Source: Tumebacillus lacus (GTDB taxonomy: Bacteria > Bacillota > Bacilli > Tumebacillales > Tumebacillaceae). Taken from it: 64,000 nucleotides of DNA. The notes beneath the pieces were generated by a model. The model was not told the DNA's origin and searched no databases. It was given only the letters and a program-made list of their open reading frames with translations. The position numbers and the translations under genes are program-made. Below are positions 40,536 through 55,621 of this stretch, piece after piece (the first letter of the stretch is position 1; each line of letters opens with the position of its first letter). The DNA is taken from NCBI RefSeq assembly GCF_026410385.1, contig NZ_JAPMLT010000008.1:62001-126000 (forward strand), read 5' to 3'.

Positions 40536-40590
40536 GAGTGGGGGCATCCTAGCGAATGTGGAGGAAGTACTAGAAAGGAGCGACGTCCCC

Positions 40591-41400
40591 ATGCGCAAAC
40601 TGTCGTCTGTCGTTCCGGCGCTCATTCTCTCCTTCTCTGTCTCCTTGTCCGCACAAACAGGTACCGCTCACGCCTCCTCTGTGGCTCCGCTGTTGCCGAC
40701 CTCTTTTCTGGAGGACAAGCAGCAGTCGGCTGTCGTCGTCCCGTCCCATACGGTGCTCAAAGTCCCGCAACGCTATCTCGCCCGGCAGGTTGAAAGAAGC
40801 GACAACCGCGTCTTGATCCACACACCGGCGATCCGGCAACACCCCGAGCTGCGCGACGGCTGCGAAGTCACGTCGCTGGCGATGCTTCTGCAGGCGGTCG
40901 GGCAGCCCGGCGATAAAATGAAACTGGCCCACGAAGTCCGCAAAGACCCCACCCCCGTCCGCCGCGACGCACGCGGCCGCATCGTTTTCTGGGGCGACCC
41001 GAAGGTCGGATTTGTCGGCGCGGTGGACGGCAAGCCGATCGGATTTGGCGTGTACCATGCGCCGATTGCCGACTTGCTGAACCAATACCTGCCCGGGCAA
41101 GCGCACGACATGACCGGGCAATCGTTTCAACAAGTCCTCGCCCGCGTCGCCGAGGGAAAACCGGTCGTCGTCTGGACCACCGTCCCGCTGCGGGCACCCG
41201 ATTACTGGGACACCTGGGACTCCCCCACCGGCCGAGTCCGCACCACCTGGAACGAACACGCCGTCCTCCTCGTCGGCTACGGCCCTGACTGCGTCTACAT
41301 CAACGACCCCTTCGACGGCACAAAAGCAAAGCGGGTCGAACGCGCGAGGTTTGAACAGAGTTGGATCGCGATGGGGATGCAGGCGGTGACGGTGAGGTAA
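40591..41400 (+). CDS. Secreted C39-like cysteine peptidase domain protein
   Basis: A 269-residue exported protein: signal peptide (SSVVPALILSFSVSLSAQTG, cleavage near AHA-SS), then a Peptidase_C39_2 domain (about 73-265). Catalytic C91 is in RDGCEVTSLAMLLQ, H223 in WNEHAVLLVGY and the acidic/Asn partner at 238-239 (YINDPF). C39_2 proteins of this kind are predicted extracellular cysteine peptidases or bacteriocin-processing relatives; the substrate is unknown. ATG 40591 follows AAAGGAGCG. It splits the ancestral uvrB-uvrA pair and is transcribed against both. Confidence 0.85.
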   Translation: MRKLSSVVPALILSFSVSLSAQTGTAHASSVAPLLPTSFLEDKQQSAVVVPSHTVLKVPQRYLARQVERSDNRVLIHTPAIRQHPELRDGCEVTSLAMLLQAVGQPGDKMKLAHEVRKDPTPVRRDARGRIVFWGDPKVGFVGAVDGKPIGFGVYHAPIADLLNQYLPGQAHDMTGQSFQQVLARVAEGKPVVVWTTVPLRAPDYWDTWDSPTGRVRTTWNEHAVLLVGYGPDCVYINDPFDGTKAKRVERARFEQSWIAMGMQAVTVR

Positions 41401-44015: not shown

Positions 44016-44044
44016 TTGAAAAACCCTTACAAATCGCGGATAAT
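44016..44044 (+). promoter_or_regulatory. Sigma-A promoter of the FAAL-PKS-NRPS operon
   Basis: TTGAAA (44016-44021), 17-base spacer, GATAAT (44039-44044). Each hexamer has one mismatch. Transcription would start near 44051, leaving a 29-base leader with the GAGGAGG site. The intergenic region from 43860 is markedly AT-rich. Confidence 0.7.
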
Positions 44045-44079
44045 TGGTTACATCAACTGGGAGCTTGAGGAGGAAAATC

Positions 44080-45855
44080 ATGTCCCCGCAAACGATCACC
44101 ACTTTGGAACTGCATGCCACAGGCTTCGACACGCTGGTCGACCTGTTACAAACGCGCGCCCTCCGGCATCCGGAGCGGATCGCCTATACATTTTTGCAAG
44201 ACGGTGAAGGACGGGAGGTCCCGCTCACCTACGCGACGCTCGACCGCCAAGCCCGCGCCATCGCCGCGCATCTGCAAACGCGGGCCCGGCACGGCGACCG
44301 CATTCTGCTCGTCTATCCGCAGGGGCTGGAGTATATCGCCGCCTTCTTTGGCTGCCTCTACGCCGGCATGATCGCCGTGCCGGTCTTTCCGCCGACGATG
44401 AGCCGCAACGTCCAGCGGCTGGAAGCGGTGATGGCCGACTCCGAAGCGGCGGTCGCTTTGACCACGTCCCAACTGTTGCTGAAGATGGAAGCCCAATTTG
44501 CCGAGCAGGAGGAATTTGCCCGGTTTGACTGGCTGCCGAGCGACCTGATCTGCGAGACGGAAGCGGACGGATGGGTGGAGCCGGTGTTGACGGGCGATCA
44601 CCCCGCCTTTTTCCAATACACGTCCGGCTCGACCGGCAGACCCAAGGGCGTGATCGTCACGCACGCCAACCTGCTTCACAACGAAAAGGTGATCGCACAG
44701 GCGCTCGGCAACACGGAGGCGTCTGTCAACGTGAGCTGGCTGCCCCTGTACCACGACCTCGGCTTGATCGGCTGCGTGTTGCAGACGGTGTATGTCGGCG
44801 GGACGTGCGTTTTGCTGTCGCCTGTCGATTTTCTCCAGCGGCCGTTCCGCTGGTTGCAAGCGGTGTCGAAATACAAAGCGACGTTCAGCGGCGGGCCGAA
44901 TTTTGCCTATGATCTCTGCGTGAAAAAGATCACGGCACAGCAAAAAGCCACGCTCGATCTCAGCCACTGGGCGCATGCGTTCTCCGGCGCGGAACCGGTG
45001 CGCAGCGGGACGTTGCAGCGGTTTGCGGAATCGTTTGCTTCGTGCGGATTTGCAAAGGAAGCGTTTTACCCCTGCTACGGCCTCGCCGAAGCGACGCTGA
45101 TGGTGACGGGCAACGACGCGGCGGACGGGCCGGTCGTGCTGGCGGTGGACGGAGCCGCGCTGGAAGAAGGCCGCGTCGAGCCGGTGCAGACAGACACGCC
45201 GAACTCGCGGGAATTGGTCGGCTGCGGGCGCGTGAGAGACGAGTTGACGGTCCGCATCGTCGACCCGGCGTCGCACGCGATCTGCACGGACGGGCAGGTC
45301 GGCGAGATCTGGGTGGCCGGTCCGAGCGTGGCAAAAGGATATTGGAACCAACCGGAGCTGACGGAGGAGATGTTTGCTGCGCAGGTCTCTCTGGCGGACA
45401 GGCAGGAGAACGGAGCGTTTTTGCGCACCGGCGATCTCGGATTTGTACACGGGGGGCAGTTGTTTATCACCGGTCGCCTGAAAGATTTGATCTTGATTCG
45501 CGGGCGCAATTATTATCCGCAAGATCTGGAACTGACGACCGAGCAATGCCACGAAGCGGTCACCGTGGCCGCCGCGTTTTCGACGGAGACGGGCGGCGAG
45601 GAACGGGTGGTGATCCTCGCCGAGTTGGACCGCCGCTTCCGGCCGCGTCCAGGACTTGAGGAGCGGCAAGCCCCTCTTTATAAGGAAGTGATCGGTGCGA
45701 TACGCCGCTCTGTCGCCGAGGAGCACCAACTGCAAGCATCGGCGATCCTGCTGGTCAAAGCGAACAGCCTGCCAAAGACGACGAGCGGCAAGATTCAGCG
45801 ACACGCCTGCCGTCACGACTACCTGCACAACACGTTGGAAATCTGGGGAGAGTGA
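44080..45855 (+). CDS. Fatty acyl-AMP ligase (FAAL)
   Basis: Activates a fatty acid as acyl-AMP and passes it to an acyl carrier protein, here most likely the ACP at the start of the next protein. 591 residues with FAAL/ANL motifs QYTSGSTGRPKGV (P-loop, near 180), SWLPLYHDLGLIG (near 220), the SGGPNFAYDLC and GLAEATL elements, FLRTGDLGF and the late SLPKTTSGKIQRHAC with the A10 lysine. QYTSGST and WLPLYHDLGLIG are typical of FAALs rather than CoA ligases. GAGGAGG precedes ATG 44080. Four bases separate its stop from the PKS-NRPS start, so the two are translationally linked. Chain length accepted cannot be read from the sequence. Confidence 0.93.
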   Translation: MSPQTITTLELHATGFDTLVDLLQTRALRHPERIAYTFLQDGEGREVPLTYATLDRQARAIAAHLQTRARHGDRILLVYPQGLEYIAAFFGCLYAGMIAVPVFPPTMSRNVQRLEAVMADSEAAVALTTSQLLLKMEAQFAEQEEFARFDWLPSDLICETEADGWVEPVLTGDHPAFFQYTSGSTGRPKGVIVTHANLLHNEKVIAQALGNTEASVNVSWLPLYHDLGLIGCVLQTVYVGGTCVLLSPVDFLQRPFRWLQAVSKYKATFSGGPNFAYDLCVKKITAQQKATLDLSHWAHAFSGAEPVRSGTLQRFAESFASCGFAKEAFYPCYGLAEATLMVTGNDAADGPVVLAVDGAALEEGRVEPVQTDTPNSRELVGCGRVRDELTVRIVDPASHAICTDGQVGEIWVAGPSVAKGYWNQPELTEEMFAAQVSLADRQENGAFLRTGDLGFVHGGQLFITGRLKDLILIRGRNYYPQDLELTTEQCHEAVTVAAAFSTETGGEERVVILAELDRRFRPRPGLEERQAPLYKEVIGAIRRSVAEEHQLQASAILLVKANSLPKTTSGKIQRHACRHDYLHNTLEIWGE

Positions 45856-45859
45856 CATC

Positions 45860-48800
45860 ATGGATCACACGCACACTCGCGATTCGCTGCAAGCTTGGAT
45901 GCTGAACGAACTGTCGGAACGCCTCGGCCTCCCGGTCGAGGAGCTCGACACCCGCGAGCCTTTTCTCAACTTCGGACTCGATTCGGCGGAGGCTGTGATG
46001 CTCTCCGGCGATCTCGGGGAGTATCTCGGAGTTGAGCTTTCCCCGACCGCCCTGTGGGACCACCCCTGCGTCGACGATCTGATCGACCATCTGCTGTCGC
46101 TGCCGGAACTGAAACCCCGGCAAGAGACAGCGACCGACCATTTTGAAAAGTTGTACCACCAGCTCTATCACCAAGCCCCGGTCCCCTATCGCGAAACGCG
46201 CGAAGAACCGATCGCCATCGTCGGCATCGGTTGCCGTTTTCCCGGCGCGACGGGGCCGGAGCCGTTTTGGGAACTGTTGAAAAACGGCGTGGACGCGATC
46301 TCGGAAGTGCCTGCGGAGCGGTTCGACGCATCGGCGTTCTTCGATGCCGATCCGGGCGCACCGGGAAAGATGAACACGCGCTGGGGCGGATTTTTGCAAG
46401 GGGTCGATCTGTTTGACAACGGATTTTTCGGCATCTCGCCCCGCGAAGCATCCCGGATGGACCCGCAGCAACGCCTCCTGTTGGAAGTGGCATGGGAGGC
46501 GCTCGAAGACGGCGGATTGCCTCCTTCGCAGCTCTCCGGCTCGAAGACGGGTGTGTTTGTCGGCATATCAAATAACGAATATTCGCGCATTCAGTTTTCG
46601 GACAAATCGCTGATCGACGCGTACGCAGGCACCGGCAACGCGGTCTCCATCGCGGCCAACCGCCTCTCCTACCTGCTCGACCTGCGCGGGCCGAGCCTGT
46701 CGATCGACACGGCTTGCTCGTCGTCGCTGGTGGCGGTGCATCTGGCCTGCCAGAGCTTGCGAAACGGCGAGAGCGAGATGGCGTTGGCGGGCGGGGTCAA
46801 TCTGATCTTGACGCCCGATGTGACGATCAATTTTTCCAAGGCGGGCGTAATGGCAAAAGACGGCCGGTGCAAAACGTTCGATGCGGCGGCTGACGGCTAT
46901 GTCCGCAGTGAAGGCGTCGGCCTCGTCGTGCTGAAGACGCTGTCTCAGGCACAGGAGGACGGCGACCGCATCTACGCGGTGATCCGGGGCAGCGCGGTCA
47001 ATCAGGACGGCCGCAGCAACGGGCTGATGGCGCCGAACGGACAGGCGCAGGAAGCGGTGCTGCGCGAGGCGTTTTTAAATGCGGGCGTTTCGCCCGGCAA
47101 AGCGCATTACGTGGAAGCGCACGGCACCGGCACCGAACTTGGCGATCCGATTGAGGTGATGGCGCTGGGCCGCGTCATGTCGGAGGACCGGTCGCCGGAA
47201 CGGTATTGCCGCGTCGGCTCGGTCAAAAGCAATTTCGGACACACCGAAGCGGCAGCCGGCGTCGCCGGGCTGATCAAAGTCGCGCTGGCGTTGAAACACA
47301 AACAGTTGCCGCCGACCCTGCATTTTCAGGAGCCCAATCCGCTGATCCCGTTTGCCACGCTGCCCGTGACGGTGCAGACGGAGCTGTCGGAGTGGCCGAC
47401 CTTGCCGGAGGAAAAAGCGCTGGCCGGGGTCAGCTCGTTTGGATTTGGCGGGACGAACGCGCATGTGGTGTTGGAGGAGCATGTGGAGCCGACCCCTGCC
47501 GCGGAGACCAACAGCCGGGAGCAGGCGGAAGTGCTGGTGCTGTCCGCGCCTTCCAAGCAGGCGTTGGACGAGCTGGCCGGGTCGTATCGCGATTTCGTGC
47601 GCAGCGGCGTCGTGGAGGGCGGTGCTCCCGCTCTGCGCGATCTGTGCCACACGGCGAACGCGCGACGGGATCATCACGATCATCGCCTGGCACTGGTGGC
47701 GCGGTCGCATGAGGAGATCGCGCAGGCATTGGAAGATTATCTGCACGAGGAGCCGCGCCTCGGACTGTCGCACGGCTCGGCCAACAGCAGAAGGCGGCGG
47801 CCGCTCGTCTTTGTCTTTCCGGGACAGGGAGGGCAGTGGCTCGGGATGGGAAAACAGTTGTACGCGACGGAGCCTGTGTTTCGCGATGCCATCGACCGCT
47901 GTGACGAGCTGCTGCACGGGCTCGCAGGCTGGTCGATTCTCGATGAGCTGTACGAGGACCCGGAGTTTTCCCGCCTCGGCGAGACGGAGGTCGCACAGCC
48001 GGTGCTGTTTGCCGTGCAGGTCGCGCTGGCCGAACTGTGGCGCGCCTGGGGCCTGTACCCGGACGCGATCGTCGGCCACTCGATGGGCGAAGCGGCGGCG
48101 GCGCATCTCGCCGGCGCGTTGACGCTGGATGAGGCGATCTACGCGATCTGGCAGCGCGGTCGCGTGATGAGCAAAGCGGACGGGCAAGGAAAGATGGCCG
48201 CTGTGGAGCTGCCGGAGCAGGAAGTGGCGGCCAGACTGACGGCATACGGAGACAGGCTGTCCATCGCGGCGGTCAACGGGCCGACGTCGGTGGTGGTGTC
48301 GGGCGATGCGGACGCGGTGGAGGAGTTTGTCGCGGCGATGGCGCGAGACGGGGTCTTTTGCCGCGCGCTGCAGGTCGATCTCGCCTCGCACAGCCCGCAG
48401 ATGGAACGGCTGCGCACCCCGCTGGTGGAGACGCTGGTCGATCTGACACCCCGCTCAGCGTGGGTACCGCTCTACTCGACGGTGACGGGCGGATTGGTTG
48501 ACGGCACGGAGCTGACCGCCGCTTATTGGGGGCGCAATCTGCGGGAGCCGGTGCGCTTCCACGACGCGTTGACGCAGTTGCTCTCGGACGGCTATGCGAC
48601 ATTTCTCGAAGTCTCGCCGCACAACGTGCTGACCGCCGCGATCCGCACCGCGCTGCAAACGCACGGCCACACCGGGACCGCGCTCCCGACGTTGCGACGC
48701 GGGAAAGACGAGCGGGCGACGATGCTCGGCACCCTCGGCGAACTGCATGTGCTGGGTCTGCCGATCGACTGGATGAAAGTCTACCCGGACGGCCGCGTCC

Positions 48801-51800
48801 TCTCCCTCCCCGCCTACCCGTGGCAGCGGGTGCGCTGTTGGATGGACGGCTGCGTGTCCCCCGAACGCCCCGCTGTCCCGCTGTGGGACCTCGTGCTGGC
48901 GAAAGGGGCGGAGCAGTCGGAGCAGGCCCCTCTCGATCTGGGACTGCCGGAGTATGCGAGCAAACGGGCGTGGTTGGATCGTCTGACCAACGCGTACGTG
49001 ATCGCGACGCTTCGGAAATTGGAGGTATTTGCTCAAGCGGGTGAGGAGCTTGCCGTCGAGGAGATCCTCGCGACGAAAGGACTGCTCCCGTTGCACGGCA
49101 AGCTGTTGCATCGCTGGATGGCACGGCTGACGGCGCTTGGGCTGGTGCGGGAACAGGAAGGGCGGTTCACCTCCGTCGCACCGCTGCCCGACCCGCAGGT
49201 GGAGCTCGTGCTCGGCGAAGGTCGCGAGCATCCGGTCTTTCTCGACTATCTGCGCCGCAACGGCGAGCGGCTCGTCGACGTGTTGCGCGGCGAGACGACG
49301 GCGTTGGAGCTGTTTTTCCCCGGCGGTTCGTTTGAGACCACCGAATACATCTACCAGCACTCGGCGGAGGCGCGTTATTTCAATCGGATCGCAGCGACTG
49401 TGGCGGCCGGTGTCGCCGCTTCCGCTCCGCATCGCCGGTTGCGCGTGTTGGAGATCGGCGCCGGTACGGGCGGGACGACCGCTTCGGTATTGCCCGCCTT
49501 GCCGGGGGAGCGGACCGATTATACGTTCACCGATCTGTCCGACCTGTTCCTCTACCGGGCGCGGCAAAAGTTTGCCGGGTATCCGGGACTGCACACGCGC
49601 TTGCTCGATATCGAAAAAGACCCGGTCGAGCAAGGCTTTTCGCAAGGCTCGTTCGACCTGATCGTCGCGGCGAACGTCCTGCACGCCACTCGCGACCTGC
49701 GCGAGACGTTGCGCCATGTGCGCGGACTGCTCGCACCGGGCGGGGTGGCGATGCTGTGGGAAGTGACCGATCATCAGCCGTGGTTTGACATCACGTTCGG
49801 ACTGATCGACGGCTGGGGACGGCATGAGGACGACCTGCGCGACGGGCATCCCCTGCTGCATCGCGCCGCCTGGCAGGCCGCTTTGCTGGAGCACGGCTTC
49901 GAAACGACGGCGGCGTTTCCGGCGGAGGGATCGCTCGCGAACGCGTTGGGACAGCACATCGTGGTGGCGCGGGCGGCAGGAGACATGACAGCATCGGTCG
50001 CTGCGCCGGAGGAGGAGCGAGACGCGGCGTTCATCGAGGAAAGCGACGCGGCGGCCACGACCTGGCACGCTCAGTTGCTCGCCACCGCACCCGATCAGCG
50101 TCAGGATCTCATCGTCGACTATCTGCAGCGGCGTTTGGCACGTCTGCTCGGCACCCCGGCTGCCCGACTGGACGCGGAACAACCGCTGAACACGCTCGGA
50201 CTCGATTCGCTGATGGCCGTCGAGATGCGCAACGCGATCATGCAGGACGCCGGGGTAAACATCCCGGTGGCCCGCTTCCTGCAAGAGGTATCGGCGCTGG
50301 ATGTGGCCGAGGAAGTGTTGGCACAGTGGAGCGAGTCGGCTGTGGAGGAGACGGCGTCGGCGAGGTCTGTGCTCCTGCCGGACTTGGAAAACCGCCACGC
50401 ACCGTTTCCGCTCAATGACATTCAACAAGCGTATTGGATCGGCCGCACCGGCGCTCTGGAACTGGGCAATGTCGCGACGCAGCTCTACCTGGAGTTTGAA
50501 GCGGACGCGCTGGATCTGCCGAGATTGGAACGCGCCTGGCAGACATTGATTCTCCGCCATGACATGTTGCGCGCCGTCGTGTTGCCAAGTGGAGAGCAGC
50601 AGATCCTCGAAGCGGTGCCGCCGTATGAGATCGCTTGCTCCGAAGCGACCGACGAGCAGTTGACCGCCGTGCGCGAGCGGATGAAGCACACGGTGCGCAG
50701 CGGCGATACATGGCCGCTGTTCGAGATCTGCGCACACACGGCGGCAGAGACAGGACGCACGCGCCTGCTGATCGCCATCGACTTTTTGATCGCGGACGCG
50801 GCGAGTCTGCTGCTGCTGTTCCGCGAGTGGAACGAACTGTACCGCGACCCGACGGCTGCGTCGCAGTGGACGCCGTTGACGCTCTCCTTCCGCGACTACG
50901 TGTTGGCGGAGGAGGCCGCACGAGATTCTGAGGCGTACCGGACCTCGCTCGCGTACTGGCAGGAGCGGGTGCCGACATTGCCGCCCGCACCGGAACTGCC
51001 GCTGACAAAGTCACCGAGCATTTTGGAACGCCCGCGGTTTGCCCGCCGCACGCTGACGATGGACGCCGCGTCTTGGAGCCGCTTGAAAGAGCGGGCCGCC
51101 GAGAGCGGGATCACCCCGTCGATGCTGCTGTGCGCCGCCTATGCGGAGGTGCTGAAGACGTGGAGCAAGAGCCCGCGTTTCACCTTAAATTTGACCTTGT
51201 TCAACCGCGAACCGATCCACCCGCAGACCGGGCAGATCGTCGGCGACTTCACCGCCCTGAACCTGCTGGAAGTGGACGCGTCGGAAGCGGTGCCTTTTGC
51301 CGAGCGCGCCCGCCGTCTGCAAGCGCAATTGCTCGCCGACCTCGAACACCGCCGTGTCAGCGGCGTCCGCGTCCTGCGCGAACGGGCTCGTGCGCAAGGA
51401 ACGACGCTGGGAGCTCCCATGCCGGTCGTCTTCACCTCGGTGCTGGAAGACTTCGCCCCGACGTTTGACTGGCTCGGCGAACTGGTCGAATCCCTCGCAC
51501 AGACGCCGCAGGTCTGGCTCGACCACCAAGTCTTGGAGCGAAACGGCGCGCTGTTCCTCATCTGGGACGCGGTCGAAGAGCTGTTCCCGAGCGGGGTGCT
51601 CGACGACATGCTGGCCGCGTACGGGCGGCTGTTGCAAGAGCTGGGAGCGGACGACACGGCTTGGCATCGCCACGGGCACGACCTGCTCCCGGCTTCGCAA
51701 CGGGAGCTTCCGGCTGTCACAGAGACGACCGAGCGACCGGTGCCCGCAGGTCTCCTGCACGAACCGTTTGTTCGTCACGCTCTTTCAACGCCCGCTCATC

Positions 51801-54800
51801 CGGCGGTGATCACCTCGGTGCGGACGTTGACGTACGGCGACCTGCACGCCCTCGCCAACCGCTGGGCTCGCCTCCTGCGCGAACAGGGCGTGCGGCCGAA
51901 CACCCTCGTCGCCGTCCTGATGGAAAAGGGCTGGGAGCAAGCGGTCGCCACGCTCGCCGTCTTGCTGGCGGGCGCCGCCTATCTGCCGCTCGACCCGCAG
52001 CAGCCGGAGGAACGCCTGCGCCAGTTGATCGAGATCGGCGAGGTGGAGGTCGTCTTGACCCAGCCGCAATTTTTGGAAAATGAGAATCTGTTCCGCAACG
52101 TCCGCACCTTCGCCGTCCACGACGAAGCGGTCGCGGGCTATGAGGACAGCCCGTTGGAATCCGTTCAATCGCCGGATGATCTCGCCTACGTCATCTTTAC
52201 GTCCGGATCGACCGGCGTTCCGAAAGGCGTCATGATCGACCACCGCGGCCCGCTCAATACTTGCCTCGACATCAACGAACGGTTTGGCGTCGGTCCGGAC
52301 GACCGCTTGCTCGCACTGTCCGCGCTGCACTTCGACCTGTCTGTCTACGATCTCTTCGGCCTGTTCGCAGCGGGCGGCACCGTCGTCATCCCGGAGCCGG
52401 ACGCGGTGCGTGACCCGGCTCGCTGGGCGCAGTGGATGCAGCGGAAGCGGGTCACCGTCTGGAACTCGGTGCCTGCGCTGTTGAACTTGCTCGTCGACTA
52501 TGCGGACGGACAGCCGGAGCGGCTCTCCTCCGCGCTGCGAGTCGTGATGATGAGCGGCGACTGGATTCCGGTCTCGTTGCCGGATCGGCTGCGTGCTCTG
52601 CTGCCGAACGTCTCGATCCACTCCCTCGGGGGCGCGACCGAAGCGTCGATTTGGTCGATCCACTACCCGATCCGCGACGTCGATCCGGCGTGGACGAGCA
52701 TCCCGTACGGTCAAGCGATGGCCCATCAGCCGTTTTACGTCTTCCATGACGATCTGCAACCCTGCCCGGTGTGGGTGCCGGGACAGCTCTATATCGGCGG
52801 TGTCGGCCTCGCCAAAGGGTACTGGCGGGATGAGGTCAAAACCGCTTCCAGTTTCCTGACCCATCCGGTGAGCGGCGAACGGCTCTACCGGACGGGCGAC
52901 CTCGGCCGCTGGTTGCCGGACGGCAACATCGAGTTCCTCGGCCGCGAAGATTTCCAAGTCAAAGTGCAGGGCTACCGCATCGAGCTCGGCGAGATCGAAC
53001 ACGCCCTGCTCCGCCGACCGGACATCCGCTCGGCCGTCGTCGCCGCCATCGGCTCCCATGCCGGGGAAAAGCGCCTCGTCGCCTACCTCGTCCCCGAGCC
53101 GGACGCACCGGCTCCGGATGCGGACGACCTGCGTCGCGGTCTGCAAGTCGCGTTGCCCGAGTACATGGTGCCGAGCGCCTTCGTGGTTCTGGACAGCCTC
53201 CCGCTCAGCCAAAACGGCAAAGTGGACCGCAAAGCCCTGCCCGCGCCCGACTTCACCCTCGAAGCGGCGCTCGGCTACGAAGCCCCGTCCACTGCCGCCG
53301 AACGGACACTCGCGGCGATCTGGAGCGAACTCCTCGACCTCGACAGGGAGCGGATCGGCATCCATGACAACCTGTTCACCCTGGGTGCCCACTCCGTCCA
53401 CATCATCCAGGCGGTCGTTCGCCTGCGCCGCGCCGGCTACACCGTCCACGCCCAGCAACTCTTCGAGCGGCAAACCATCGCCGCCACCGCCGAGCTGTTG
53501 GAAGGAATGGGGGAGGTCGTTCATCAGGCACAGTCGGCGCACATGCCCGACCAAGATTCGGCAACCGATCAAAACTCTCGAACGCCTCTCGCAACATCTG
53601 CGGCGTCTGCGGCGTCAAACCCGAGCACCGGCACCCTGCCACAAGGGCCGACCGCCCCGGCCCGCGCTCTGCTGACAGGGGCGACAGGCTATCTGGGCAT
53701 CTACCTGTTGCGCGAGTTGCTGCTGCATACCGACCTCACCGTCACCTGCCTCGTCCGCGCCGGCGACGAGGCGGCCGCTGCGGTGCGACTGCTCGAGCGG
53801 CTGACGTGGTACTTCCCGGACGCGGACTTCGCCGATCACCTCGGCGACCGCCTGCACGTTGTCGTCGGCGACATCGCTCTGCCGCGCTTCGGCCTCTCCG
53901 ATGCCGACTGGCATCTGCTCGCGGACGAGACCGACCTGATCTACCACGCCGCCGCCTTGGTCGACCACTACGGCGACCCGGCCCTGTTCCAAGCGGTCAA
54001 CGTCGACGGCACCCGTCACGCCCTCGATCTGCTGACCCTCGGCCGCCCGAAGAGGTTCCAGCACATCTCCACCATCGGCGTGCGCGGCATCGACGCCTCG
54101 ACCGGGCTCTTCACCGAGACCGACTTCGACCGCGGCCAAACGTTCGACACCCGCTACGCCGAATCGAAATGGCACGCCGAACGCCTCGTCCGCGACGCCC
54201 GCGCGTCCGGTGCACAGGCCAACATCTACCGCCTCGGCTTTGTCGCGGCAGACGCGACAGGAAAATACCAGCACAACATCGAAGACAATGCCCTGTACGG
54301 CTACTTGCGCACTACCCTGCGCCTAGGAATCGCACCGTACTTGCCGACGCTGAAACTCGACTTCCTGCCTGTCGACTTCATCGCCGCCGCCATCGTCCGA
54401 CTGTCGCTGACTCCGGCATCGACCGGCGAGACGTTCCACCTGCTCGCCCCCGAACCGATCACGCACTACGATCTGATGCGCCAGTTCCAAGCGCTCGGCT
54501 ACTCGATTTTGCTGCTCGACCCGGACGAGTTCCACACTACCGTCTTTGACAGCGCCGACGACCACACCTTGACCGAACTCGACGGTCTGGTCGGCTTCAC
54601 CGACCCGTCGCGCGCTCTGATCTTCGAAGTCGCCACCGACCGCACCGCCGAACGCATCACCGCGCTCGGCTTGACCTTCCCGCCCGTCACCTTCGACTGG
54701 GTGCGCAAAATGGTCAACCACGCGGTCGCCGTCGGCCACTTCCCGGCCCCGCCGTTCCACGGCCGAACGAGCCGGACACCCGCTTTGCTCGAACAGACAG

Positions 54801-54817
54801 GAGGTTTTCCGCTTTGA
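45860..54817 (+). CDS. Hybrid PKS-NRPS: ACP-KS-AT-cMT-ACP-Cy-A(Cys)-PCP-R
   Basis: A 2985-residue assembly line. Domains by residue: ACP1 about 8-80 (GLDS, Ser42); KS 115-540 (C286 in DTACSSS, H421, H461); AT 648-950 (S741 in GHSMGE; LASHS around H844); methyltransferase region about 1010-1385 (VLEIGAGTGG at 1196); ACP2 1415-1485 (Ser1450); Cy 1508-1945 (FPLNDIQQAYWIGR; D1641-x4-D1646-xx-S1649); A 1960-2470 (pocket D2159, L2160, Y2163, N2202, M2230, S2232, then L, I, W, K: cysteine code); PCP 2475-2550 (Ser2512 in LGAHS); terminal reductase 2600-2985 (GATGYLG; Y2766, K2770). No ketoreductase or dehydratase is seen. Reading: fatty acyl on ACP1 is extended once, C-methylated, kept as beta-ketone, joined to Cys, cyclised to thiazoline, and released by NAD(P)H as aldehyde or alcohol. 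All key residues are intact. The AT motif is ambiguous between malonyl and methylmalonyl. Confidence 0.95.
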   Translation: MDHTHTRDSLQAWMLNELSERLGLPVEELDTREPFLNFGLDSAEAVMLSGDLGEYLGVELSPTALWDHPCVDDLIDHLLSLPELKPRQETATDHFEKLYHQLYHQAPVPYRETREEPIAIVGIGCRFPGATGPEPFWELLKNGVDAISEVPAERFDASAFFDADPGAPGKMNTRWGGFLQGVDLFDNGFFGISPREASRMDPQQRLLLEVAWEALEDGGLPPSQLSGSKTGVFVGISNNEYSRIQFSDKSLIDAYAGTGNAVSIAANRLSYLLDLRGPSLSIDTACSSSLVAVHLACQSLRNGESEMALAGGVNLILTPDVTINFSKAGVMAKDGRCKTFDAAADGYVRSEGVGLVVLKTLSQAQEDGDRIYAVIRGSAVNQDGRSNGLMAPNGQAQEAVLREAFLNAGVSPGKAHYVEAHGTGTELGDPIEVMALGRVMSEDRSPERYCRVGSVKSNFGHTEAAAGVAGLIKVALALKHKQLPPTLHFQEPNPLIPFATLPVTVQTELSEWPTLPEEKALAGVSSFGFGGTNAHVVLEEHVEPTPAAETNSREQAEVLVLSAPSKQALDELAGSYRDFVRSGVVEGGAPALRDLCHTANARRDHHDHRLALVARSHEEIAQALEDYLHEEPRLGLSHGSANSRRRRPLVFVFPGQGGQWLGMGKQLYATEPVFRDAIDRCDELLHGLAGWSILDELYEDPEFSRLGETEVAQPVLFAVQVALAELWRAWGLYPDAIVGHSMGEAAAAHLAGALTLDEAIYAIWQRGRVMSKADGQGKMAAVELPEQEVAARLTAYGDRLSIAAVNGPTSVVVSGDADAVEEFVAAMARDGVFCRALQVDLASHSPQMERLRTPLVETLVDLTPRSAWVPLYSTVTGGLVDGTELTAAYWGRNLREPVRFHDALTQLLSDGYATFLEVSPHNVLTAAIRTALQTHGHTGTALPTLRRGKDERATMLGTLGELHVLGLPIDWMKVYPDGRVLSLPAYPWQRVRCWMDGCVSPERPAVPLWDLVLAKGAEQSEQAPLDLGLPEYASKRAWLDRLTNAYVIATLRKLEVFAQAGEELAVEEILATKGLLPLHGKLLHRWMARLTALGLVREQEGRFTSVAPLPDPQVELVLGEGREHPVFLDYLRRNGERLVDVLRGETTALELFFPGGSFETTEYIYQHSAEARYFNRIAATVAAGVAASAPHRRLRVLEIGAGTGGTTASVLPALPGERTDYTFTDLSDLFLYRARQKFAGYPGLHTRLLDIEKDPVEQGFSQGSFDLIVAANVLHATRDLRETLRHVRGLLAPGGVAMLWEVTDHQPWFDITFGLIDGWGRHEDDLRDGHPLLHRAAWQAALLEHGFETTAAFPAEGSLANALGQHIVVARAAGDMTASVAAPEEERDAAFIEESDAAATTWHAQLLATAPDQRQDLIVDYLQRRLARLLGTPAARLDAEQPLNTLGLDSLMAVEMRNAIMQDAGVNIPVARFLQEVSALDVAEEVLAQWSESAVEETASARSVLLPDLENRHAPFPLNDIQQAYWIGRTGALELGNVATQLYLEFEADALDLPRLERAWQTLILRHDMLRAVVLPSGEQQILEAVPPYEIACSEATDEQLTAVRERMKHTVRSGDTWPLFEICAHTAAETGRTRLLIAIDFLIADAASLLLLFREWNELYRDPTAASQWTPLTLSFRDYVLAEEAARDSEAYRTSLAYWQERVPTLPPAPELPLTKSPSILERPRFARRTLTMDAASWSRLKERAAESGITPSMLLCAAYAEVLKTWSKSPRFTLNLTLFNREPIHPQTGQIVGDFTALNLLEVDASEAVPFAERARRLQAQLLADLEHRRVSGVRVLRERARAQGTTLGAPMPVVFTSVLEDFAPTFDWLGELVESLAQTPQVWLDHQVLERNGALFLIWDAVEELFPSGVLDDMLAAYGRLLQELGADDTAWHRHGHDLLPASQRELPAVTETTERPVPAGLLHEPFVRHALSTPAHPAVITSVRTLTYGDLHALANRWARLLREQGVRPNTLVAVLMEKGWEQAVATLAVLLAGAAYLPLDPQQPEERLRQLIEIGEVEVVLTQPQFLENENLFRNVRTFAVHDEAVAGYEDSPLESVQSPDDLAYVIFTSGSTGVPKGVMIDHRGPLNTCLDINERFGVGPDDRLLALSALHFDLSVYDLFGLFAAGGTVVIPEPDAVRDPARWAQWMQRKRVTVWNSVPALLNLLVDYADGQPERLSSALRVVMMSGDWIPVSLPDRLRALLPNVSIHSLGGATEASIWSIHYPIRDVDPAWTSIPYGQAMAHQPFYVFHDDLQPCPVWVPGQLYIGGVGLAKGYWRDEVKTASSFLTHPVSGERLYRTGDLGRWLPDGNIEFLGREDFQVKVQGYRIELGEIEHALLRRPDIRSAVVAAIGSHAGEKRLVAYLVPEPDAPAPDADDLRRGLQVALPEYMVPSAFVVLDSLPLSQNGKVDRKALPAPDFTLEAALGYEAPSTAAERTLAAIWSELLDLDRERIGIHDNLFTLGAHSVHIIQAVVRLRRAGYTVHAQQLFERQTIAATAELLEGMGEVVHQAQSAHMPDQDSATDQNSRTPLATSAASAASNPSTGTLPQGPTAPARALLTGATGYLGIYLLRELLLHTDLTVTCLVRAGDEAAAAVRLLERLTWYFPDADFADHLGDRLHVVVGDIALPRFGLSDADWHLLADETDLIYHAAALVDHYGDPALFQAVNVDGTRHALDLLTLGRPKRFQHISTIGVRGIDASTGLFTETDFDRGQTFDTRYAESKWHAERLVRDARASGAQANIYRLGFVAADATGKYQHNIEDNALYGYLRTTLRLGIAPYLPTLKLDFLPVDFIAAAIVRLSLTPASTGETFHLLAPEPITHYDLMRQFQALGYSILLLDPDEFHTTVFDSADDHTLTELDGLVGFTDPSRALIFEVATDRTAERITALGLTFPPVTFDWVRKMVNHAVAVGHFPAPPFHGRTSRTPALLEQTGGFPL

Positions 54818-55575
54818 CCATACTCAATCGCCCCACCAAACCAAATCCGTGGCTGACCTGCTTCACGCCGCATCCGACCGCCACCCTGCGCCTCTTCTGC
54901 TTCCCGTACGCGGGAGGCGGCGCACCGGTGTTCCGCGAATGGTCCGCCCTGCTGCCAAACGCCGAGATCATCGCGCTCCAATACCCGGGCCGCGGCGCAC
55001 GCATGATGGAGCCGCCGATGCAATCCCTGCCGGAGCTCGCCGCCGGCATCTACGAAGCGATCCTGCCTCATCTCAACAAACCGTTCGCTTTCTTCGGCCA
55101 CTCCCTCGGCTCGCTGGTCGCCTTCGAAGTCGCCCGCCTGCTGCGCAAAAACGGCCACCCGTTGCCCCGCCATCTGTTCGTCTCGGCCCGCAAAGCGCCG
55201 CACGTGCCGCGTACCGCCGAAAAACAGATGCACAAACTGCCGGAACAGGAGTTCATCGAGGAACTCAAAACATACAACGGCACGCCCAAAGAAATCCTCG
55301 AAAACAAAGACTTGATGGAACTGGTGCTCCCGGTGCTTCGCGCCGACTTCCGCGTCAACGAAACGTACGAATACGGCGAAGAACCGGCTCTGCACATACC
55401 GCTTACCGCCCTCACCGGCATCGAAGACTCCCGGGCCACCGAAGCGGACATGACGAAATGGAGCCTCCACACTTCGGACGTCTTCACCCAGCAGACATTC
55501 CCGGGCGACCACTTCTATCTCAATCCCTTGCAAAAAGAACTCACCGCCTTCCTCGCCAAACAACTGAACCTCTGA
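54814..55575 (+). CDS. Type II thioesterase
   Basis: A 253-residue alpha/beta hydrolase of the GrsT/SrfAD kind that removes wrong or stalled groups from carrier proteins. LFCFPYAGGGAPVFREW near 28-44, nucleophile in FFGHSLGSLVAFEVA near 95, late Asp in GIEDSRA and His in PGDHFYL. The start is TTG, overlapping the PKS-NRPS stop (TTGA), with AGGAGG 9 bases upstream, so it is translationally coupled. Last gene of the cluster. Confidence 0.93.
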   Translation: MTILNRPTKPNPWLTCFTPHPTATLRLFCFPYAGGGAPVFREWSALLPNAEIIALQYPGRGARMMEPPMQSLPELAAGIYEAILPHLNKPFAFFGHSLGSLVAFEVARLLRKNGHPLPRHLFVSARKAPHVPRTAEKQMHKLPEQEFIEELKTYNGTPKEILENKDLMELVLPVLRADFRVNETYEYGEEPALHIPLTALTGIEDSRATEADMTKWSLHTSDVFTQQTFPGDHFYLNPLQKELTAFLAKQLNL

Positions 55576-55583
55576 GGAAATCA

Positions 55584-55621
55584 AAAAGGCGCGCTGTCCA
55601 CACGGACAACGCGCCTTTTTC
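55584..55621. terminator. Bidirectional terminator of the biosynthetic operon and motB
   Basis: AAAAAGGCGCG-TGTCC/GGACA-CGCGCCTTTTT, 15-bp interrupted stem, T runs on both strands. Confidence 0.85.

Follow-up and report, generated by a model that had tools for sequence, protein, structure and literature searches.

A compact FAAL-PKS-NRPS-reductase operon of Tumebacillus lacus with a predicted lipid-thiazoline product

Between uvrB and motAB in Tumebacillus lacus lie three genes (44016-55621 of the window, which is the whole 64,000-nucleotide stretch analysed here) that encode a fatty acyl-AMP ligase (FAAL), an ACP-KS-AT-cMT-ACP-Cy-A-PCP-R protein and a type II thioesterase. Orphan clusters of this hybrid kind are common, and the question raised by this one is what it could make. 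We hypothesise that it is a self-contained operon for a small lipid thiazoline, and give the full pathway reading a probability of roughly 0.62. Gene content, domain order, motifs, the cysteine code and the presence of a phosphopantetheinyl transferase (PPTase) are read from the sequence, and from these we infer collinearity, a single round of extension and the oxidation level of the product; any biological role would likewise be an inference.

The genes and expression signals, with gene starts chosen by their ribosome-binding sites, are:

44016..44044, + strand, putative sigma-70 promoter, TTGAAA-17-GATAAT (consensus scan, 10/12; weak alone)
44080..45855, + strand, FAAL, 591 aa, ATG start at 44080 and stop at 45855 (Pfam, NCBIfam, solved relatives)
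45860..54817, + strand, hybrid PKS-NRPS, 2985 aa, ATG start (Pfam, NCBIfam, motifs)
54814..55575, + strand, type II thioesterase, 253 aa, TTG start (Pfam Thioesterase, E 8.5e-53)
55583..55621, + strand, intrinsic terminator (-25.4 kcal/mol, z -8.4, 0/200 shuffles as stable)

The FAAL gene is preceded by the ribosome-binding site GAGGAGGAAAATC and separated by a 4-nt gap from the PKS-NRPS gene, whose reading frame has no internal stop across 2985 aa and which in turn overlaps the thioesterase gene by 4 nt (TTGA). Such junctions are typical of translational coupling and, with the single terminator, they indicate that the three genes form one operon, spanning 11.6 kb. Three coupled genes and a terminator had been claimed in the initial annotation, and the frames, the 4-nt junctions and the terminator fold bear this out. 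The single promoter fares less well: the consensus match is present, but such sites scarcely exceed chance (4 found against 1.5 expected in the consensus scan). Position 44016, given as the start of the locus, falls at the putative -35 box, and the first gene begins only at 44080; the remaining gene positions hold. The terminator is near-symmetric and so would probably end motB transcripts from the opposite strand as well. The sequence from 43 to 57 kb is free of N.

The surroundings point to an insertion. In a congener (G002), motA, motB and uvrB lie side by side, with 55 bp between motB and uvrB, and by coordinates the uvrB-motA distance is ~0.9-1.8 kb in 10 of 13 relatives, the two genes being on different contigs in 2 and separated by another insert in 1 (G004). 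The empty site in relatives thus confirms that the operon was inserted between uvrB and motAB. The other insert, in a genome of a different family, is an unrelated segment of ~10 kb at the motB-uvrB junction (L051 1480-9446, G004:C1; kynureninase, cyclase, tryptophan dioxygenase and a methionine-type ABC transporter). At least two insertions have thus occurred in this gap, which appears to be a recurrent site for them. We considered and rejected foreign composition or recent transfer, of which there is no sign, since the GC3 of the operon (0.78-0.80) matches that of neighbouring core genes (0.80-0.83). The + strand also carries a C39-like peptidase gene (window 40558-41400), located between uvrA and uvrB.

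The operon is absent from all 13 order-mates in our order sample of 14 species-level genomes and is therefore dispensable, which could suggest that in this strain it is cryptic or does not function. We regard this as very unlikely, as the motifs are unbroken over 11.5 kb, GC3 is like that of core genes, and a strong terminator and a ribosome-binding site are present. Every catalytic residue that can be checked is intact, as first reported, with the KS, AT, cMT, Cy, A, carrier, R and thioesterase motifs all present. Judged from its sequence, the cluster is a genuine orphan and apparently functional, and it combines known modules in a new way.

Pfam finds three PP-binding domains, KS, AT, methyltransferase, Condensation, AMP-binding and NAD_binding_4 in the 2985-aa protein, and its domains, identified by motifs and solved homologues, are placed as follows:

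45896..46093, + strand, ACP1, residues 13-78, predicted acceptor of the fatty acyl group (Pfam PP-binding)
46205..47524, + strand, KS, residues 116-555, catalytic Cys-His-His intact (Pfam, motifs, KS tree)
47807..48757, + strand, AT, residues 650-966, ambiguous extender, with ETEVAQ, GHSMGE and LASH (Pfam, solved relatives, motifs)
48947..50059, + strand, C-methyltransferase (cMT), residues ~1030-1400, with an unbroken SAM motif and NVLHAT (nearest solved relative: CurJ cMT)
50102..50329, + strand, ACP2, residues ~1415-1490 (Pfam, motifs)
50372..51709, + strand, heterocyclisation domain Cy, residues ~1505-1950, DFLIADAAS (motif; BmdB relative)
51752..53239, + strand, A domain, residues 1965-2460, code DLYNMSLIWK (motifs, code reading)
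53297..53503, + strand, PCP, residues ~2480-2548, Ser in LGAHS (motif)
53651..54769, + strand, thioester reductase R, residues ~2598-2970, GATGYLG and YAESK intact (Pfam NAD_binding_4, TIGR01746, MxaA R)

Specifically, we propose that; 1) the FAAL would adenylate a free fatty acid and load it onto ACP1; 2) the KS would add one malonyl (or methylmalonyl) unit supplied by the AT; 3) the cMT would place a methyl on the alpha carbon, with the beta-ketone retained; 4) Cy would join the 2-methyl- or 2,2-dimethyl-3-oxoacyl group to L-cysteine activated by the A domain and close the thiazoline; 5) R, with NAD(P)H, would free a 2-(1-methyl- or 1,1-dimethyl-2-oxoalkyl)-thiazoline-4-carbaldehyde or 4-carbinol; 6) the type II thioesterase would remove mis-loaded cargo from the carriers; and, 7) the carriers would be activated by a chromosomal Sfp-type PPTase ~14.5 kb away. 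The product, if an aldehyde, would be electrophilic.

For the starter side, the ligase shows Pfam AMP-binding and DIP2-like C-domains, and FAAL models are its top NCBIfam matches, yet fall under the subfamily cut-offs. Its best solved relatives are FAALs (7R7E-G, 3KXW, FadD32 and FadD23), aligned over nearly the full length (E 3e-179 for 7R7F), and by these comparisons it is closer to FAALs than to CoA ligases. Its predicted role is thus to convert a fatty acid to acyl-AMP and load ACP1. The KS carries DTACSSS, EAHGTGT and KSNFGH and, in a tree of 45 rows, groups with the KSs of a Nostoc plasmid and of the congener G002 (support 98/90). Both of those operons begin with a FAAL gene, the order being FAAL-ACP, P450, KS in Nostoc and FAAL, an acyl-CoA-dehydrogenase-like protein with a terminal carrier region, KS in G002, which supports a KS that accepts a fatty acyl group. 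The G002 locus as a whole (L099 2376-17909, G002:C20) reads FAAL / acyl-CoA-dehydrogenase-like / KS-AT-DH-KR-ACP / NRPS.

The choice of extender is ambiguous. The top solved matches of the AT are erythromycin-type methylmalonyl ATs, and its VDLASHSPQM resembles the YASH motif of those ATs, whereas ETEVAQ and GHSMGE are malonyl-like. Methylmalonyl-CoA may be available, since the genome has two methylmalonyl-CoA-mutase-family genes. Because the AT motifs are mixed, the alpha carbon could carry either one or two methyls. The cMT (Pfam match at residues ~1190-1350) has the CurJ cMT as its closest solved relative (E 7e-66), with the SAM motif LEIGAGTGG and the NVLHAT histidine conserved, and all three carrier serines are intact. 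Pfam detects no KR, DH or ER in the 2985 aa, and there is no room for one between AT, cMT and ACP2; the beta-ketone would therefore stay.

A single extension is an assumption, since FAAL-fed type I PKSs can be iterative, as proposed for massiliachelin. In that system, three rounds of extension of hexanoate are proposed for a FAAL-ACP-KS-AT-KR line followed by cysteine, and the producer yields a pentylphenol-thiazole aldehyde and alcohol, isolated as side products (PMC10291242). By analogy, an iterative KS with the cMT could form a methylated alkyl-resorcyl group here, giving an aryl-thiazoline aldehyde or alcohol, similar to aerugine or pulicatin and a plausible metal chelator. We consider this unlikely, as the protein has neither KR, DH/TH or product-template domain nor space for them between AT, cMT and ACP2, its KS clusters with KSs from other modular architectures, and no Fur/Zur box was found upstream. 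The massiliachelin and micacocidin lines do share much with the operon, in that a FAAL loads a fatty acid, a type I PKS (with a FAAL then ACP-KS-AT start) extends it and a Cys module heterocyclises cysteine to a thiazoline (PMC10291242). However, they have a KR and a further Cys unit, three extensions to pentylsalicylate are proposed for them, and they lack a methyltransferase in the PKS module and R-domain release. We therefore rejected the operon as a member of this group: no KR, needed for salicyl formation in such lines, occurs in its 2985 aa, and it ends with its own R domain.

On the NRPS side, the condensation domain (Pfam match from residue 1517) belongs to the Cy type, as shown by DxxxxDxxS (here DFLIADAAS), with VVFTS and WLDHQ (Thr/Asp) present downstream. 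The A domain (Pfam AMP-binding match at residues 1972-2322, plus C-domain) has intact A3, A5, A8 and A10 motifs, and its code, read by position, is DLYNMSLIWK, the established code for cysteine; in related loci, the A domains linked to Cy mostly have DLYNLSLIWK or DLYNMSLIWK. The code thus predicts selection of cysteine. The closest solved structure to Cy-A-PCP is the bacillamide synthetase BmdB, a Cys-heterocyclising module. The R domain (NAD_binding_4 at residues 2605-2845) scores 228.5 bits against TIGR01746 (cut-off 213.35) and retains the Rossmann motif GATGYLG and the catalytic Tyr-Lys pair in YAESK. Its nearest solved relative is MxaA R, which reduces as far as the alcohol, and its matches also include AusA R, an aldehyde former. 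The thioesterase motif GHSLG is intact. Taken with the profiles, these motifs, the code and the solved relatives support the cysteine-derived thiazoline and the aldehyde or alcohol release of the initial annotation, just as Pfam and motifs confirm its three proteins and their domain order.

In PKS-NRPS hybrids, certain R-type domains lack redox activity and act as Dieckmann cyclases on a beta-ketoacyl-aminoacyl thioester. Incomplete cyclisation or another mode of release could accordingly give a linear N-(3-oxoacyl)cysteinal, its thiohemiacetal or a Dieckmann tetramic acid, an outcome that we think quite unlikely. The Tyr-Lys pair and nucleotide motif of R are intact and its score exceeds the reductase cut-off, while a Cy with DxxxxDxxS occupies the place of the C domain; a tetramic acid is disfavoured since a thiazoline nitrogen cannot form one.

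The lipid-thiazoline reading also needs activated carriers. The operon itself contains no PPTase, as had been noted, but the contig does: an Sfp-type PPTase lies ~14.5 kb downstream of the operon (G000:C25:132078-132815; L004 6078-6815), so the carriers can be activated. Next to the PPTase and argHGF are genes for an ABC transporter of the zinc type, including two binding proteins (L004 487-4379, 6078-6815; window-equivalent ~64.5-70.8 kb). Yersiniabactin-type compounds bind metals via thiazolines, and these transporter genes next to the PPTase, beyond the window (L004 487-4379), might hint that the product is a metallophore and the operon part of metal uptake. This is improbable in our view: the transporter is far outside the operon and on the opposite strand, no phenol or second chelating unit is predicted, and matches to Fur, Zur, PerR or MntR boxes upstream of the operon do not rise above chance (best 5 mismatches, reached by most shuffles). 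Metallophore, signal and protease inhibitor had all been offered as product classes, and none gained specific support, there being no metal-regulon box and no transporter in the operon. The absence of an exporter had been correctly recorded. It counts against the lipid-thiazoline pathway that the operon has no export or resistance gene, whereas the most similar cluster by architecture, described below, has an MMPL transporter.

How new is this architecture? No close homologue was found, the best per-domain identities being FAAL 52%, KS 65%, AT 51%, cMT 44%, Cy 55%, A 63%, R 37% and TE 49%. Scoring two candidates per genome, which may miss some, we found no homologue of the same architecture in a class sample of 399 genomes (Cy-A matches end before R) or a phylum sample of 398; among 390 cyanobacterial genomes, scored likewise, only Stenomitos aligned into R. 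Matches of ~3040 aa in other Bacilli were rejected as different NRPSs with methyltransferases embedded in their A domains. Since the best domain matches come from different organisms, the PKS-NRPS looks like a long-separate mosaic. An acidobacterial locus (L018), from a class sampled by two genomes only, carries a KS-AT-DH-KR-ACP-Cy-A-PCP line, adjoined by genes for TEII, a PPTase and a FAAL.

The nearest cluster by architecture is an uncharacterised one of the cyanobacterium Stenomitos frigidus ULC18 (L019), in which one protein carries FAAL-ACP-KS-AT-ACP and the following one Cy-A-PCP-R (identity to the operon: KS 60%, Cy 54%, A 52%, FAAL 51%, R 37%). It differs in lacking a cMT, in its fused FAAL and TubC_N docking domain, and in an extra redoxin and MMPL transporter. 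These last two directly follow Cy-A-PCP-R (L019 19755-25676), and are followed by a CAP12/Pycsar-TIR and a ThsA-macro-like defence gene. The Nostoc plasmid pNLP2 cluster (NZ_CP026694; the record names no product) shares FAAL-ACP, KS-AT-cMT-ACP and Cy-A(Cys)-PCP and has the highest KS (65%) and cMT (44%) identity, but is split over three separate proteins with TE in place of R, has the AT motif HAFH, and carries a P450, a vanadium haloperoxidase and an MFS transporter. Yersiniabactin HMWP1 has the order KS-AT-cMT ... ACP-Cy, the same as in the operon, a likeness judged by domain order; it differs in that it contains a KR, starts from an aryl-thiazoline and uses a TE for release. BmdB, the best solved relative of the NRPS half, shares Cy-A(Cys)-PCP but lacks FAAL and PKS, works with an oxidase partner that gives a thiazole, and has another release.

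Novelty was thus overstated at first, as near-architectures exist in cyanobacteria, and massiliachelin and micacocidin follow the same FAAL-PKS-Cy(Cys) logic (PMC10291242). That the cluster has no recognised product does hold within the searchable literature, where lipid or alkyl thiazoline aldehydes gave no match. The FAAL-product table of a review lists mycosubtilin, bacillomycin D, iturin A and (as printed) mycobactin for Firmicutes, and no Firmicutes product of this type (PMC11837247). It is possible, though at somewhat less than even odds, that beta-keto, alpha-methyl or gem-dimethyl lipid thiazolines with a terminal aldehyde or carbinol form a new product class, with the same scheme (a single fatty acid, ketide and cysteine, released by reduction) recurring in phyla as distant as those of Bacilli and cyanobacteria.

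If our hypothesis is correct, the operon would be among the smallest complete lipid-initiated PKS-NRPS lines, with three genes, one extension, one amino acid and reductive release. It would also be a handy system for the action of a CurJ-like cMT in a KR-less module and for an R domain stopping at aldehyde versus alcohol. Every part is of a well-known kind and no known principle is overturned, but a small operon with so clear a prediction lends itself well to testing: the product is simple enough for direct synthesis and testing, and an operon of 11.6 kb is of a size suited to expression in another host.

A FAAL-Cy-A-PCP-KS-AT-PCP-Cy-A-PCP line with a separate A-PCP-R protein is shared by two members of the Bacilli from different families (L054 and L057; G293 and G155); from its predicted domains it is another reductively released lipid line, with two cysteines.
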